DNA of 64,000 bases from the NCBI RefSeq assembly GCF_004366735.1, contig NZ_SOQX01000003.1, forward strand, positions 62,001 to 126,000. Direction: 5' to 3'. Under the pieces are notes generated by a model. The model saw only the letters and a program-made list of their open reading frames with translations, made no database searches and was not told the DNA's origin. Source of the DNA: Thiohalophilus thiocyanatoxydans. GTDB taxonomy: Bacteria; Pseudomonadota; Gammaproteobacteria; UBA6429; Thiohalophilaceae. Made by a program: the position numbers and the translations under genes. This document shows positions 7,519 through 14,362 of this stretch, piece after piece (position 1 is the stretch's first letter; every line of letters starts with the position of its first letter).

Positions 7519-8283
7519 CTATTGTTGTGCCAGAAGAATTTTCTCCACCCGCTTCAGCTCTTCCTCGGTGTTGACCCCGGGCCCGGGGACCTGCGCGGCC
7601 CTGACGACCTTGATCTTCCGGCCATGATACAACACCCGTAACTGCTCCAGTGACTCGATGCGCTCCAGGGCGCAACTGCCCCACTCGATATACTGTTTGA
7701 TGAAGCCTGCGCGATAGGCGTACAGACCAATATGCCGCTGGAAGTCACTGAAATCATCCAGCGTCGGTGCCGGTGACTGAAACGCTTCGCGATCCCAGGG
7801 GATCGGTGCCCGACTGAAATAGAGTGCGTTATCCTGGTGGTCGCACACCAGCTTGATTACATTCCAGTCAAACAGCTCTTCAACACTCTCGGCCGGTGTG
7901 CTGAGGGTGGCCATCTCCGCCTCGCTGTCCCGTGCCAGGGCATGGCCGACCTGGTTGAGACAGGCCCCCGGCATCAGCGGCTCATCGCCCTGCATGTTGA
8001 CGATGATCGTCCCGTCCGGGAGAGCAAATTTTTCGATCACTTCATGAACGCGTTCGGTACCGGAATTGTGCTGCTCCGAGGTCATACAACATTCCACCGC
8101 AAAGTCGGTGCATGCTTCCATGATGCGCGGATCATCGGTGGCGACAATGATGCGTTCGGCATCACTTTGCAGGGCGTTGTCGATGACATGGGCGATCATC
8201 GGTTTACCGGCGATCTCGCGCAGGGGTTTGCCCGGCAGGCGGCCGGAAGCGTAGCGGGCGGGTATGACAATATGAAAGCTCAT
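7519..8283 (-). CDS. kdsB: CMP-KDO synthetase (3-deoxy-manno-octulosonate cytidylyltransferase) family
   Basis: A 254-residue cytidylyltransferase that activates a 3-deoxy-ulosonic acid as its CMP sugar. Signatures are the N-terminal loop IPARYASGRLPGKPL, QGDEPLM (metal and nucleotide), FSRAPIPWDR, QRHIGLYAYR and PGVNTEEELKRVE. All fit KdsB and the length is normal. Its start overlaps the stop of the glycosyltransferase gene by 4 bp, making it the last gene of a tight five-gene operon. In that operon the expected KDO genes upstream are replaced by unusual relatives, so the natural substrate may be KDO or a KDO-like heptulosonate. Confidence 0.92.
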   Translation of the reverse strand: MSFHIVIPARYASGRLPGKPLREIAGKPMIAHVIDNALQSDAERIIVATDDPRIMEACTDFAVECCMTSEQHNSGTERVHEVIEKFALPDGTIIVNMQGDEPLMPGACLNQVGHALARDSEAEMATLSTPAESVEELFDWNVIKLVCDHQDNALYFSRAPIPWDREAFQSPAPTLDDFSDFQRHIGLYAYRAGFIKQYIEWGSCALERIESLEQLRVLYHGRKIKVVRAAQVPGPGVNTEEELKRVEKILLAQQ

Positions 8284-9389
8284 GCGTTGTGATCTTTATC
8301 TGAAACAGTGCTCTGGTGTGAATGAAGCAGGCGGTCCAGTGTCGATTCTACTTCTTCGACCGTGATTCGGTCCATGGTGCCGGGATCGCGCACCCGGATG
8401 CCCCAGGGTAATGCCGACACTGGTTTGTGGAATTTCTCCTGCACGGCGTCGGGATAGTGGTTGATGGTCCATTGCCGGCTCAAATAGGGGCCGGTCCGGT
8501 CGGGGTTGGCGCAGGCATACAGACCAATCACCGGGGTGTCGACAGTCGTGGCCAGGTGGGCCGGACCCGAATCGGGTGAAACGAGGACAACAGCCTTTTC
8601 CAGAATCGCCAGCAACTGTTTTAACGAGGTTTTGCCGATCAGGTTGGTGATATTGGCGTTGGGGGCCTTCTCTTCGATGGCCGAGGCCAGCTGCTGCTCG
8701 GTGGCACTGTTGCCGCCGGTGAGATAGACCCGCAAACCGTGTTCTGTCGCGGCATACTCGGCCAGTTGCGCATAGCCTGCAACATGCCAGTTGCGATAGG
8801 CGCTGCTGGCGCCGGGACTGATGACCAGATAGGGTCGTGCGGGATCGGCCAGCTGTTCGGCTGTTTGTCGATCCGCTGCCGGGATCGGGATATCCCAGCG
8901 CAGCAGCTTTTCCTCGATCCCCAGGGCCTGGCTGAAACCGAACAGCCCGTCCATGACATGCTGATGCGGTCTGGCCTCGATCCGGTGATTGGTAAAAAGC
9001 CATTGCAGATCCCGGGCCCGGGCGCGATCGAATCCCAGCCTGATCGGAGCGTTGACCAGGCGGCTCAACAGACTGGCACGCAGGGCAACCTGCATGTGCA
9101 GCAGCGCATCGAAGCGGCGGCCGTGAAGCTGGCGGTGCACATCGCGGTAGGCGGCGAAGCCGCGAGACTTGTCAAAAACGATAAATTCAATATCGGGGAT
9201 ACCCTGCAGCAGGGCGTATTCGGTCTTGCCGATGATCCAGGTCAGTCGGGTTTGCGGCCAGGCCTGCTGAAGGGTGCGCACCACCGGCAGGGTGTGGCAG
9301 ATATCGCCGATGGCGGAGAGGCGTAAAATACACAGACTGGCCGGAGGCGTGGTAAAGGGCAGGGACATACGGGTATTTTTATCGTTCAA
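8280..9389 (-). CDS. Glycosyltransferase family 9 (heptosyltransferase-like)
   Basis: A GT-B enzyme of about 365 residues resembling LPS core heptosyltransferases. The N-terminal motif LRLSAIGDICHTLPVVR and the C-terminal donor-site motif SPDSGPAHLATTVDTPVIGLY are hallmarks of GT9, and ISPGASSAYRNWHVAGY matches the central loop. Two starts are possible: TTG at 9389, overlapping the kdsC stop (TTGA), or ATG at 9368 (MSLPF). Neither has a clear ribosome-binding site. It lies between kdsC and kdsB, so it probably adds a sugar to lipid A or core in the same pathway. Donor and acceptor cannot be read from the sequence. Confidence 0.88.
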   Translation of the reverse strand: MNDKNTRMSLPFTTPPASLCILRLSAIGDICHTLPVVRTLQQAWPQTRLTWIIGKTEYALLQGIPDIEFIVFDKSRGFAAYRDVHRQLHGRRFDALLHMQVALRASLLSRLVNAPIRLGFDRARARDLQWLFTNHRIEARPHQHVMDGLFGFSQALGIEEKLLRWDIPIPAADRQTAEQLADPARPYLVISPGASSAYRNWHVAGYAQLAEYAATEHGLRVYLTGGNSATEQQLASAIEEKAPNANITNLIGKTSLKQLLAILEKAVVLVSPDSGPAHLATTVDTPVIGLYACANPDRTGPYLSRQWTINHYPDAVQEKFHKPVSALPWGIRVRDPGTMDRITVEEVESTLDRLLHSHQSTVSDKDHNA

Positions 9390-9880
9390 AAATGATAGCC
9401 CAGATGCTCGTCGATAAACTCACGAATACAACCGTAGCCACCGTTTTTCTCCAGTACGACATCGACAATCGGCTTTATCGAGCCGACGGCGTCGGCAGGA
9501 CAGGCGCTGAACCCCACCGCATGGATAATCTCGCGGTCGTTGATGTCATCGCCGATATAGGCAACCTGTTCGAGATCGATAGCCAGTTCCGCGCAGAATT
9601 GTTTGAGGATCGCCAGCTTCGGTTCGGTCCCGACATAGTATTTTTCAATGCCCAGCGTCTTGCAGCGCTCGGCGATCAGGGTGCTTTTAAAGCCGGAGCT
9701 CAATACTGCGACCTGAACGCCCTCGCGTTGCAGATGAATAATGCCGCGTCCGTCCTTGGTATCGAAGCGTTTGATCTCCTCGCCACTCTCGGTGTAATAC
9801 ATACCGCCGTCGGTCATCACCCCGTCGATATCCAGGGCCAGCAGCTTGATGTCCGAACGAATCGCCACAGATTCAGACAA
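9386..9880 (-). CDS. kdsC: KDO-8-phosphate phosphatase-like HAD enzyme
   Basis: A small HAD phosphatase of about 160 residues of the C0 (capless, tetrameric) KdsC type. Motif I is DIDGVMTDG, motif II VLSSG, with a lysine in GTEPKLAILK, and motif III/IV GDDIND; the C-terminal GGYGCIREFID segment is typical of KdsC. It dephosphorylates a 3-deoxy-ulosonic acid phosphate before CMP activation. The start is TTG at 9880 overlapping the end of the preceding gene, or GTG at 9868. It is not next to kdsD/lptC as in the canonical arrangement, but follows a DAHP-synthase-like gene. Confidence 0.9.
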   Translation of the reverse strand: MSESVAIRSDIKLLALDIDGVMTDGGMYYTESGEEIKRFDTKDGRGIIHLQREGVQVAVLSSGFKSTLIAERCKTLGIEKYYVGTEPKLAILKQFCAELAIDLEQVAYIGDDINDREIIHAVGFSACPADAVGSIKPIVDVVLEKNGGYGCIREFIDEHLGYHF

Positions 9881-10871
9881 TGTTGTAGCCGATAGCCTGG
9901 GCGATGGGCCGCAGGGTACCGATCAGTTCACGGAAGGCATCGTGATCCAGCTGTTGCGAGGCGTCGGACTTGGCCACGGAGGGATCGGGATGGACCTCGA
10001 TCAGCAGGCCGTCGACCCCCATGGCGGTGGCGGCCCGGGCCAGATCCGGCACGCCGTAGCGATAACCCATGGCGTGACTGGGATCGACGATGATCGGCAG
10101 GTTGGTGTACTCCTTCAGATAGGCGACACCGCACAGATCCAGGGTAAAGCGGGTCTTGGTCTCGAAGGTGCGGATACCGCGCTCGCACAGGATGACGTTG
10201 TCGTTGCCGGCGGAGAGTACGAACTCGGCCGCCTGGACAAACTCCTGCAGGGTGCTGCCGAAGCCGCGTTTGATCAGGATCGGTTTGTTGCTGCGGCCGC
10301 AGGTACGCAGGATCCCCTGGTCGTACATGGCCTTGGCGCCGATCTGCACAATGTCGGTGGTTTCGATCACTTCGTCCACATGGGTGGAGTCCCGCACCTC
10401 GGTAATGATGTTGAGGCCGTATTCGCTGCGCATCTTGTCCAGCAGCCGCAGCCCCTCGTCGCCCAGGCCCTGGAAACTGTAGGGCGAGGTGCGCGGCTTG
10501 TAACAGCCTGCGCGCAGGGTGGAGATGTCCAGTTCCTTCATCAGTCTGGCCGAGGCGGTGATCTGCTCTTCGGATTCCACCGAGCAGGGGCCGCCGATGA
10601 TCATGGTGTTGCGGGTGTTGCCGCCGATGCTGATGTTGCCGATGTCGATACGGCGTTTCTCCGGCAGGTAGTCGGCGCTGGACAGCTGCATGTCGTTGGG
10701 AAAGACGAAACTTTCCACCACCATGCTCTGGTATTGACCGGGCACTTCCTGCAGGGCCGAGGGAGTGACCATCACATGATAGTCCGGCTTTTTGATATGA
10801 AAGGCATCCAGCTCGCGGCTGATTTGTTCGAGCGTCTTCTGATCGGTGTCTTTGTCGAAATGGATTATCAT
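9873..10871 (-). CDS. DAHP synthase type I-beta-like 3-deoxy-ulosonate-phosphate synthase
   Basis: A 332-residue enzyme of the DAHP/KDO8P synthase superfamily, which condenses phosphoenolpyruvate with an aldose phosphate. It has GGPCSVES (metal ligand C96), KPRTSPYSFQG (residues 125-135), KRGFGST, CERGIRTFE, DPSHAMG (H266) and IEVHPDP (E291). KPRTSPYSFQG marks the DAHP synthase side of the family (erythrose-4-phosphate users) rather than KdsA. About 80 N-terminal residues resemble the ferredoxin-like regulatory domain of the Thermotoga enzyme. The start ATG overlaps the upstream stop (ATGA). It could be the shikimate DAHP synthase, but its operon partners are KDO-type genes, so a dedicated nucleotide-sugar role is possible. 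Confidence 0.85.
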   Translation of the reverse strand: MIIHFDKDTDQKTLEQISRELDAFHIKKPDYHVMVTPSALQEVPGQYQSMVVESFVFPNDMQLSSADYLPEKRRIDIGNISIGGNTRNTMIIGGPCSVESEEQITASARLMKELDISTLRAGCYKPRTSPYSFQGLGDEGLRLLDKMRSEYGLNIITEVRDSTHVDEVIETTDIVQIGAKAMYDQGILRTCGRSNKPILIKRGFGSTLQEFVQAAEFVLSAGNDNVILCERGIRTFETKTRFTLDLCGVAYLKEYTNLPIIVDPSHAMGYRYGVPDLARAATAMGVDGLLIEVHPDPSVAKSDASQQLDHDAFRELIGTLRPIAQAIGYNIV

Positions 10872-11875
10872 ACTTCACCTTTAACGAGATTCATGAAGGT
10901 GACCGAGCCGGTCACTTCATGCTTGTTGTTAACAACGGGTAAATAATTGACCGGGAACGTCTGTTCCTGAATATAGGCCAGCAGTTCCTGTACCGTGAAA
11001 TCCTCCCGGGCCATCGCCGGAGAAGGGTTGACCATGTCGGGGATTTCCAGTGCATTGAGATTGTCGATGTGTTTGAGCAGCCCCTTGCGGACATCGGCGT
11101 TGGTGATCATGCCGAGCAATACGCCGTTCTCGTCGACCAGCAGGGTGAACCCCAGCTTGTTGTCTTCGATGGACTGCAGGATGTTGCGGACACTGAGTTC
11201 GTGCGGTTTCAGTAACGGGGTCTCGTCCAGCTGGCGCATGAAATCGCCGACCAGGTAATGCGAGCCGATGTCATGGGTTTTCAGGTTGAGCATGGCCGCG
11301 CCGATGGAATCGCTGTTCATCAGATAGGAGCCGGACACCGCGGCATAGACTCCCATGTTACGCAGGATAAAGGAGACCTCGTGATTCACTCCACCGTCGA
11401 CGTGAATGCGGGTGCGCGGGTATTTCTGGCGGAACTGGCGAATCTTGCGAAAGTTGTGCTTGTCGAAGGTGCCGCCGCTCTGTCCCGGGGTGGTGGCCAT
11501 GATCAGCACGAAGTCGAGTTGTTCGGCATAGGGCGCGAACACGTCGATATCGGTATTCGAGCTGATGGCCAGACCGGTGCGGGCATGAATCGAGCCGGGA
11601 ATCGCCAGGGCTTCCTGCAACGGCTCATACTGGAAACAGACCGCATCCACCTCGTGCGCGGCGATCAGATCGTAATACCTGTCCGGTGTCGGGGTGATGA
11701 TGTGCAAATCGATCGGGGTGCTGCTGAGCTGGCGGATCTGCGCGATATCATCGAATACTGCAGGGTCATCATTGCAGTCGATATGAAAAAAATCCGTGCC
11801 GTGCGCATCCAGCTCGGCGACGATGTCCTTCAGTGCCTTGTGCTTGTTGGAATAAATCGAGGCGGAAATTTTCAT
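10868..11875 (-). CDS. Ribulose-phosphate 3-epimerase-like domain fused to a CBS pair
   Basis: A 335-residue two-domain protein. Residues 1 to about 215 resemble a ribulose-5-phosphate 3-epimerase TIM barrel: SASIYS at the start, metal ligands at H31 and D33 (FHIDC), H58 (DLHII) and D160 (HVDGG), and MATTPGQSGG as phosphate loop. Residues about 222-335 form a CBS pair (GFTLLVDENGVLLGMITNADVRKG; TFPVNYLPVVNN) very like the one on the C-terminus of KdsD, the arabinose-5-phosphate isomerase. KdsD normally has a SIS domain in front; here an epimerase-like barrel takes that place. First gene of the five-gene operon. The reaction is unproven; sugar-phosphate epimerisation is inferred from the ligands. 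Confidence 0.8.
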   Translation of the reverse strand: MKISASIYSNKHKALKDIVAELDAHGTDFFHIDCNDDPAVFDDIAQIRQLSSTPIDLHIITPTPDRYYDLIAAHEVDAVCFQYEPLQEALAIPGSIHARTGLAISSNTDIDVFAPYAEQLDFVLIMATTPGQSGGTFDKHNFRKIRQFRQKYPRTRIHVDGGVNHEVSFILRNMGVYAAVSGSYLMNSDSIGAAMLNLKTHDIGSHYLVGDFMRQLDETPLLKPHELSVRNILQSIEDNKLGFTLLVDENGVLLGMITNADVRKGLLKHIDNLNALEIPDMVNPSPAMAREDFTVQELLAYIQEQTFPVNYLPVVNNKHEVTGSVTFMNLVKGEV

Positions 11876-12193: not shown

Positions 12194-12997
12194 CTAGATC
12201 GACACGCGGGTGTTGATTGGTCGGGTACCCGGTATGACACCGCGCCGCTGCAAATCGTTCAGAATTTGTTGACCGCCTTCGATGACCATGTCGGGATCGG
12301 GGTGGTTCAGCTCCCCGGCAATCTGGCGCAGCAGCGCCTCGCCGCTTTGCCCGTTGTCCTCCTCGATCAGGGCCAGCAGACGGGTGGTGACCGGGTTCAG
12401 TTCCATGAAGGTAATCTCGTCCCGGTCGTCCCGGTAAACCAGCAGACAGGTGGGTTGCTCGCCCGGCTGCCCGGGCTGGAATCCGGGGCCAATCCGGTGA
12501 ACCGGATAATGGTAGCTGAGCGGCCAGGCCAGCGGCGAAAGCACCGGTTGGGCCGCCAGCAGATCGCCCTGCGGGTCGATCCGGCTCCAGTCCGGTTCCT
12601 GGTCGGCGAGGCTCAGTGCCAGTTCGACCCATTCATAATGGGCCAGCTCGAATAAAAACGGCGGGTCATCCGCGGCCGGTTCGTGTTCCTGTTCGAGGTA
12701 TTTGAGGAATTCGCGCGGCATTTCGGGAAACAGCGGGGTTTTTGCCCGGTGCCGGGCGAAATAGTGGCGAATCAGCCGGTGCCACTGTTCATCGTTCAGA
12801 ATCCGGCGCAATACGGGGAAACTGTCAGCCATGAAACTCTGGACATTGTTATAAAACAGCTCCCGGTAGATGGCCATGCGCCGATCCTCGATGCCCTCCG
12901 GTGACGGATGGGTCTGCGGATCGCGCAGATGGGCCGCAAACCGGTACTGCTGCTGGCGGAAATCGGGCTTGTCAGACTGATTCGGCATGGTAGTCAT
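12194..12997 (-). CDS. bufC: BufC/HvfC-type DUF2063 partner protein of a MNIO enzyme
   Basis: A 267-residue protein of the DUF2063 family. The N-terminal helical domain (about residues 13-105) shows the family pattern [24 protein letters not shown] and [23 protein letters not shown]; the rest is a mixed winged-helix-like region. In HvfABC and bufferin systems this partner binds the precursor leader and assists the MNIO oxidase (established for related systems). It overlaps bufB by 26 bp, indicating translational coupling. A terminator follows. Confidence 0.85.
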
Positions 12998-13829
12998 GCG
13001 CTTGTTCCTGGCGTTGCTGGAGCGTATGAATCATGTCCACTTCGGCCAGTAGTTCATTGACCGGCGGCAGGTTGAAGTCTCGCTCCAGCAGGGTGGGGAG
13101 CACACCGAAATGCCGGTAAGTCTGATCGAGCAGCTCCCAGACCGGATCGATCACCGGGGCGCCGTGGGTGTCGATGATCAGATCCTCGGCTTCGTTGTAA
13201 TGGCCGGCGACATGGATATAACTGATGCGTTCGCCCGGCAGGGCGTGCAGAAACTCCACGGGATCGTAGCGATGATTGACGCTGTTGACATAAATATTGT
13301 TCACATCCAGCAACAGCCTGCAGTCAGCCTCCTCGAGTACGGCATTGATGAACTCGATCTCGTCCATCTGTTTGCCCGGCGCGGCGTAATAGGAGACATT
13401 TTCCACGGCAATGGGCTGTTCCAGTATATCCTGGACACGACGAATGCGTTCGGCCACGTAATGGACCGCCTCTTCGGTGAACGGTATGGGCATCAAATCG
13501 TACAGGTGCCCGTCGTCACTGCAGTAACTCAGGTGTTCGCTGTAGATTCGGATATTGTGTTGGTTGAGAAATCGCTTGAGACGCTGTAAAAATGCCTCGT
13601 CCAGCGGTGCGGGACTGCCTAGCGATAATGACAGGCCGTGGGTGACAAAGGGATAGCGCTCGGTAAATTCGCGCAACTTGCGGCCATAGCGGCCCCCGAC
13701 GCCAATCCAGTTCTCCGGCGCCACCTCCATGAATTGCACCTGAGAAGGGAACGGGTCTGCAAGCGGCTCCATGATGGAGCGCCGCAGACCCAGTCCGGCG
13801 CCATGAACAGGATAGTCTGTCGTGTTCAT
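12972..13829 (-). CDS. bufB: BufB/HvfB-type MNIO (DUF692) peptide-modifying iron oxidase
   Basis: A 285-residue TIM-barrel enzyme of the multinuclear non-heme iron oxidative family. Metal-site motifs in order: [56 protein letters not shown] and IDTHG. Family members oxidise cysteines of a precursor peptide (thiooxazole in bufferins, oxazolone/thioamide in the Haemophilus EGKCG system). It lies 18 bp after the precursor gene and overlaps bufC, so the three form an operon. Length and motifs are complete, so the enzyme should be active. Confidence 0.93.
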
Positions 13830-13847
13830 GTCAGTTCCTCTGGCAGC

Positions 13848-14204
13848 TTATTTGTTACTGCCGCATTTACCTTCACCACACTTGCCTTCCTGTTTGGCCT
13901 TGTCGCCGCCACATTTACCTTCCATGTTCTTTTTCATTTCTTTATCGCCACCGCATTTACCTTCACCACACTTGCCTTCCTGGCTCTGTTTCTCGTCACC
14001 GCGGCCTTCGCCACAACGACCTTCGCGGCCCTTGTCACCCATGTGGTTGTCGGCCAGTTGCATGTATCCGCTGGACAGCTCGCTCATGGCGAAGGGATTA
14101 TTGCCGGCTTCGGCGGCAGTGGCGACGTTGCTGGCGGCCATGCCGGCGGCAAAGGCGGTGCCCAGCGCGAGTGTCAGGGTTCTGGATGATTTTTTAGTGG
14201 ACAT
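13848..14204 (-). CDS. bufA: BufA/HvfA-type RiPP precursor with EGKCG repeats
   Basis: An 118-residue precursor. It has an N-terminal Sec-type signal region (MSTKKSSRTLTLALGTAFAA to about ATAA), a spacer with NPFAMSELSSGYMQLADNHMGDKG, then a cysteine-rich core. The core holds one EGRCG and five EGKCG motifs, six cysteines in all, separated by Lys/Glu-rich linkers. In related systems the MNIO enzyme modifies these cysteines to bind copper. The start is ATG at 14204, supported by GGAG 9 nt upstream; the open frame continues 87 bp further upstream but without a ribosome-binding site. Product likely exported to the periplasm. Confidence 0.9.
   Translation of the reverse strand: MSTKKSSRTLTLALGTAFAAGMAASNVATAAEAGNNPFAMSELSSGYMQLADNHMGDKGREGRCGEGRGDEKQSQEGKCGEGKCGGDKEMKKNMEGKCGGDKAKQEGKCGEGKCGSNK
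13861..13982. repeat. 32-bp direct repeat inside the bufA core
   Basis: The same 32 bp occur at 13861-13892 and 13951-13982, exactly 90 bp (30 codons) apart. They encode the paired EGKCGEGKCG blocks, so the core probably grew by in-frame duplication. Confidence 0.85.
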
Positions 14205-14362
14205 AATCTGTATTCTCCATGTGTTATTTGTTTGGTTATTAGTCGTGGAATCGGGGTCAACCTTACAACAGAAATGATATAAAAAAACCACGCGATTCCT
14301 GAAATGTGACCCTGGCCGGGCGTAATGGTTCCTGCCCGGGTCCGGCGCGAGGAGGCGGTTAA

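Follow-up and report, generated by a model that had tools for sequence, protein, structure and literature searches.

KDO is the sugar through which lipid A is attached to the remainder of the lipopolysaccharide (LPS), and it is regarded as near-universal and essential in Gram-negative bacteria; to our knowledge, KdsA and KdsD are considered the sole entry enzymes of its biosynthesis, and they are also drug targets. The DNA analysed here (the window, 64,000 nucleotides from Thiohalophilus thiocyanatoxydans) contains an operon in which a KdsC-type phosphatase and KdsB are accompanied by two enzymes that are unrelated, or only distantly related, to KdsD and KdsA, posing the question of which sugar is formed and by which reactions. 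The most likely answer is an undescribed alternative route into KDO, a variant of the known pathway that has been spread horizontally.

Operon Organization

The operon comprises five genes, all open and overlapping or nearly so, located on the minus strand at positions 7519-11875. The first codes for a RPE-type TIM barrel joined to a KdsD-like CBS pair (RPE-CBS, 10868..11875), as indicated by PF00834, PF00571 and the folds of the AlphaFold model; the second for a DAHP-synthase Ibeta-like condensing enzyme, with an N-terminal FL-type domain followed by the barrel (9873..10871; TIGR01361/PRK08673 and fold); and the third for a KdsC-like C0-type HAD phosphatase (9386..9880; TIGR01670), whose start is either TTG at 9880 or GTG at 9868. 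They are followed by a GT9 glycosyltransferase, heptosyltransferase I-like (8280..9389; PF01075), likely starting at ATG 9368, and by KdsB, the CMP-KDO synthetase (7519..8283; TIGR00466), the sole kdsB of the genome. Coordinates and domain calls thus bear out the five overlapping minus-strand genes, and their identities, that an earlier note had read from the letters of the window.

A literature search in open-licence papers did not find any published description of this gene set, in agreement with the earlier note, which knew of no described system containing it; however, the set is not peculiar to this genome, since the first three genes, hereafter the cassette, occur across Bacteroidota, in about 70 loci. 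KdnA and KdnB, which belong to the Shewanella Kdo8N pathway, were found neither in the operon nor in its immediate neighbours.

KdsA and KdsD in Thiohalophilus and Its Relatives

The genome containing the window (2.9 Mb, listed as 100% complete) was analysed by family and profile searches, which gave no KdsA: PF00793, covering both KdsA and DAHP synthases, matches only the operon synthase and one other gene, an AroF/G/H-type (AroG-type) Ialpha DAHP synthase, while TIGR01362, specific for KdsA, identifies genome-wide the operon synthase only, with a score below the cut-off. KdsD is also missing, as TIGR00393 gives only matches to CBS domains, with at most 34.5 bits vs a cut-off of 203.7. Of the searches proposed in the earlier note, those for canonical kdsD and kdsA were thus negative, while those for a lptC-linked kdsC and for another aroF/G/H were positive. 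The separate AroG-type gene makes aromatic synthesis independent of the operon, contrary to the possibility, raised by the same note, that the operon enzyme is the only DAHP synthase and serves shikimate alone.

Among 76 relatives, the RPE-CBS fusion is present in 10 genomes from two genera (one copy is cut by a contig end), and neither kdsA nor kdsD is present in any of these 10 fusion-positive, Chromatiales-like relatives; the rest of the family carries both, except for a few incomplete genomes. The analysis was extended by scanning a public genome collection with an alignment of RPE-CBS, from which the best 80 loci were taken; these derive mostly from Bacteroidota MAGs and genomes, together with nine gammaproteobacterial MAGs, mainly of the Chromatiales type. 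A cassette-type synthase lies downstream of RPE-CBS in 78 of the 80 loci, and in 70 the KdsC-like phosphatase is present as well, with the three genes adjacent and in the same order as in the operon, so that the arrangement is far from chance.

kdsD was found in none of 40 cassette genomes from these best 80 loci, and kdsA in none of 41, compared with 30 of 39 cassette-free Bacteroidota, the absence calls resting in part on MAGs. Fisher tests, which ignore shared ancestry and are descriptive, gave p values of 2.9e-6 for kdsA and 2.3e-5 for kdsD in the family, and of 2.4e-14 for kdsA in Bacteroidota. The cassette and kdsA/kdsD are therefore mutually exclusive in about 50 genomes; this exclusion, together with the absence of kdsA and kdsD from the genome of the window, strongly supports the proposal that the KdsD and KdsA steps were replaced while the phosphatase and activation steps were kept. 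In Bacteroidota overall the cassette is rare, being found in two of 198 sampled genomes, one of which was the chosen centre. The remaining nine cassette-free Bacteroidota (G118, G123, G128, G133, G137, G141, G145, G149 and G153) also lack kdsA, indicating that its loss has additional causes; these organisms either have no KDO or use yet another route.

Genomic Context and Origin of the Cassette

In sister genomes kdsD is located directly before kdsC, and the ancestral site reads yrbG-kdsD-kdsC-lptC. The corresponding region in the genome of the window contains yrbG, a small ORF, kdsC, lptC, lptA, lptB and rpoN; kdsD is gone, and no remnant of it is detectable in the gap between yrbG and kdsC. 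Judged by eye, the small ORF in this gap resembles a heavy-metal-associated domain; the frame that was tested has no Pfam match. In a sister genus (g13) the cassette is divergently oriented beside kdsB-kdsC-lptC-lptA-lptB-rpoN, and one locus of the collection (L088) is colinear, with the order RPE-CBS-synthase-KdsC'-KdsB-KdsC-lptCAB; these layouts indicate that in some lineages the cassette sits in the ancestral kdsD slot.

In the tree of the synthases, all 19 entries from Gammaproteobacteria fall into a single clade (support 0.98), which lies within Bacteroidota sequences (0.97 with four Bacteroidota MAG sequences); the gammaproteobacterial entries are also a clade in the RPE-CBS tree (0.82). 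The simplest reading of these phylogenies would be a transfer from Bacteroidota to Gammaproteobacteria, whatever the number of transfers.

The RPE-CBS Protein

RPE-CBS consists of a barrel (amino acids 1-200; Ribul_P_3_epim PF00834, 3e-27) and of a CBS pair (amino acids ~207-335; PF00571, 7.7e-10). The CBS pair has its best sequence match in that of KdsD/KpsF, and the AlphaFold model of the protein (pLDDT 91) finds as best PDB folds RPE for the barrel and the CBS pair of the KdsD/KpsF arabinose-5-phosphate isomerase 4o9k, a structure with CMP-KDO; the SIS domain of KdsD/KpsF is instead absent. The barrel shares with RPE the His/Asp metal centre, and the metal and acid-base residues S6, H31, D33, H58 and D160 are invariant in 35 aligned members, which suggests that RPE-CBS can move a proton adjacent to a carbonyl, in the manner of RPE. 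However, besides carrying the additional CBS pair, RPE-CBS lacks the loop that follows HxD in RPE (NHYVPNLTIGP) and does not reach the RPE equivalog TIGR01163 (88.5 vs a cut-off of 212.6 bits); its phosphosugar substrate probably differs from that of RPE. We know of no RPE-barrel enzyme that produces arabinose-5-phosphate (A5P).

The Condensing Enzyme

The synthase (DAHP_synth_1) scores above the cut-off of the DAHP synthase model TIGR01361 (321.5 vs 267.75 bits) and far below that of the KdsA model TIGR01362 (about 124-125 vs 314 bits); similarity to the NeuB family is also detectable in the domain search. Its AlphaFold model (pLDDT 92.5) is closest to the solved type Ibeta DAHP synthases of T. 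maritima (1rzm, the top match), P. furiosus (1zco) and A. pernix (1vs1), with which it shares the fold, the FL-type domain, the catalytic Cys/His/Glu/Asp, the PEP residues and the KPRTS motif. Unlike these enzymes, it accompanies kdsB and kdsC, and not aro genes, and it differs at positions R180, N181, Q183, N184 and N242.

The cassette synthases form one clade of 87 members, in all or nearly all of which R180K, N181A/S, Q183Y, N184D, N242F, H257N and other changes are fixed, whereas in 27 ordinary Ibeta enzymes R180, N181, N184 and N242 are invariant and Q183 is almost so. The sugar-pocket motifs are modified accordingly: where ordinary enzymes have the GARN.QN loop and RNTLD, all or nearly all members carry RFTLD and a GAKAMYDQ-type loop. 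Fixed changes at pocket positions that are otherwise invariant, or almost so, thus mark the cassette clade as a distinct enzyme type, with a rebuilt sugar-phosphate end of the pocket.

Position 183 aligns with an arginine of KdsA that is presumably R106 of the Aquifex enzyme, the residue mutated in 1t8x; R106 contacts the phosphate of A5P. In the alignment comparison the cassette synthase had gained none of the KdsA-specific replacement residues, so that a convergence on KdsA is not proposed. The motif is the KPRTS of DAHP synthases and not the KANRSS-like one of KdsA; together with the missing KdsA-specific residues, this makes a four-carbon substrate possible.

Phosphatases, Glycosyltransferase, KdsB and WaaA

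The operon phosphatase matches the KdsC-phosphatas model TIGR01670 with 156 bits (cut-off 107) and the KDN-9-P phosphatase model NF058599 with 157 bits, under its cut-off of 180; the closest solved structures are 3e81, which is a BT1677-type enzyme, and 4hgr. It is KdsC-like, as already noticed, but it is not the only KdsC of the cell: a second, ordinary one, linked to lptC, is located on another contig. In many Bacteroidota cassettes (e.g., L107:12003-12686) the phosphatase bears an additional N-terminal HTH-like domain of ~60-70 amino acids, with a marginal HTH_3 match (22.9 vs 23 bits).

The GT9 product matches Glyco_transf_9 (PF01075, 6e-53) and, under the cut-off, TIGR02193 (127 bits); its gene is part of the operon in no lineage other than that of the window's genus. 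KdsB is the single match to TIGR00466 in the genome (304 bits vs a cut-off of 155) and can be aligned with solved KdsB over its full length. In KdsB of the window's genus and of L088, Asn replaces Asp at the Mg-A ligand motif near the C-terminus (GVNT), at a position where the Asp has been described as strictly conserved (PMC3149649); one KdsA-bearing genome has GVAT at this motif. WaaA is encoded by a single gene and is fused to a LpxL-type acyltransferase, with a total length of 763 amino acids (L007, G000:C7:33253-36768); WaaA frames of comparable length are found in many sister genomes, while the genus g13 has a separate WaaA.

Positions that are otherwise conserved are altered in the cassette genomes in 1 of 81 cases for KdsB, 1 of 79 for the lptC-linked KdsC and 1 of 80 for WaaA; at conserved positions, a specificity shift of these three enzymes is thus essentially absent.

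Proposed Route and Alternative Explanations

Taken together, we consider it fairly probable that in the operon non-orthologous enzymes stand in for KdsD and KdsA at the start of KDO biosynthesis, with KDO formed from A5P. Gene content, exclusivity, the synteny scar, phylogeny and residue changes are computed results, while for substrates, products and feedback we infer the following scheme. RPE-CBS would supply D-arabinose-5-phosphate from the pentose-phosphate pool, either by epimerising ribose-5-phosphate at C2 or by isomerising ribulose-5-phosphate, with the RPE-type metal centre and two aspartates shifting the proton next to the carbonyl; its KdsD-like CBS pair would probably act as a sensor of CMP-KDO, the end product, a role also proposed for KdsD. 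The DAHP-synthase-like enzyme would then condense A5P with PEP to KDO-8-phosphate, which the operon phosphatase and/or the lptC-linked KdsC would convert to KDO; finally, KdsB would produce CMP-KDO and WaaA would transfer KDO to lipid A. In evolutionary terms, the cassette would have come into these Gammaproteobacteria from Bacteroidota, with kdsD and kdsA lost afterwards. Compared with the canonical KdsD-KdsA-KdsC-KdsB-WaaA pathway of E. coli, a KdsC-type phosphatase, KdsB, WaaA and a KdsD-type CBS pair are retained, and the intermediates are proposed to be identical; however, the SIS-fold KdsD is replaced by a RPE barrel, KdsA by a synthase derived from DAHP synthase Ibeta, and the genes are in a separate operon.

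The earlier note had offered two readings, an alternative KDO route and a CMP-activated heptulosonate made from erythrose-4-phosphate, and the former is the better fit. In the latter, as developed here, no KDO would be formed, and the cassette would produce a CMP-activated C7 3-deoxy-heptulosonate (e.g., D-lyxo, i.e., KDO without C8) that connects lipid A with the core: the RPE-type barrel would epimerise erythrose-4-phosphate, or generate another aldose phosphate, the synthase would add PEP, and KdsB and WaaA would handle the product like KDO. The KPRTS motif typical of erythrose-4-phosphate users, the grouping of the synthase with DAHP synthases Ibeta and not with KdsA, the distinct type of the operon phosphatase, which matches KDN-9-P phosphatase no less than KdsC, and the unusual GVNT motif in KdsB of this lineage are what keeps such a C7 analogue in consideration, although we judge it rather unlikely. 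Several residues that are invariant in the pocket of ordinary Ibeta enzymes have changed, and a route based on erythrose-4-phosphate would not need a first enzyme of the pentose-phosphate type. Moreover, KdsB, KdsC and WaaA display almost no matching shift, which makes KDO itself the likeliest product; both the conservation of the lptC-linked KdsC after the loss of kdsD and kdsA, and a CBS pair closest to that of KdsD, also favour KDO.

The same lack of a shift in KdsB and WaaA argues against the takeover of the lipid A linkage by a different C8/C9 ulosonic acid, such as a KDO stereoisomer or a KDN-like sugar; this is suggested by the operon phosphatase, which scores equally as KDN-9-P phosphatase and KdsC and has 3e81 as its closest solved relative, and by the similarity of the synthase to the NeuB family, but NeuA/NeuB-type partner genes are absent from the operon, and we consider this explanation improbable. 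Finally, an ordinary DAHP synthase and an ordinary epimerase brought together by accident, with KDO imported or made through undetected KdsA and KdsD, would agree with the TIGR01361 equivalog cut-off being passed, but is very improbable in view of the separate AroG-type enzyme, the recurrent three-gene order, the complete mutual exclusion with kdsA/kdsD and the ease with which the family models find these genes in sister genomes.

If the KDO route is true, it would explain genomes that seem KDO-deficient and yet keep kdsB and waaA, and it would predict that the RPE fold harbours a further, new activity. How the DAHP synthase and KDO8P synthase families diverged has long been debated, and the cassette would provide a natural example, bearing on this divergence, of a DAHP synthase that became a KDO8P-type synthase; furthermore, the first half of an essential pathway would move between phyla as a three-gene cassette.

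Other Gene Clusters in the Window

Two further clusters were observed in the window. At 12194-14291, genes for DUF2063 and MNIO (MbnB/TglH/ChrH) proteins, identified by Pfam, lie beside a small Cys-rich protein with EGKCGEGKCGG repeats, in what is presumably a bufferin-type copper-binding RiPP cluster. The region 245-2741, read by eye, contains an arsenic-resistance cluster, with an ArsC-like phosphatase, a MBL-fold hydrolase and an ACR3-like transporter.
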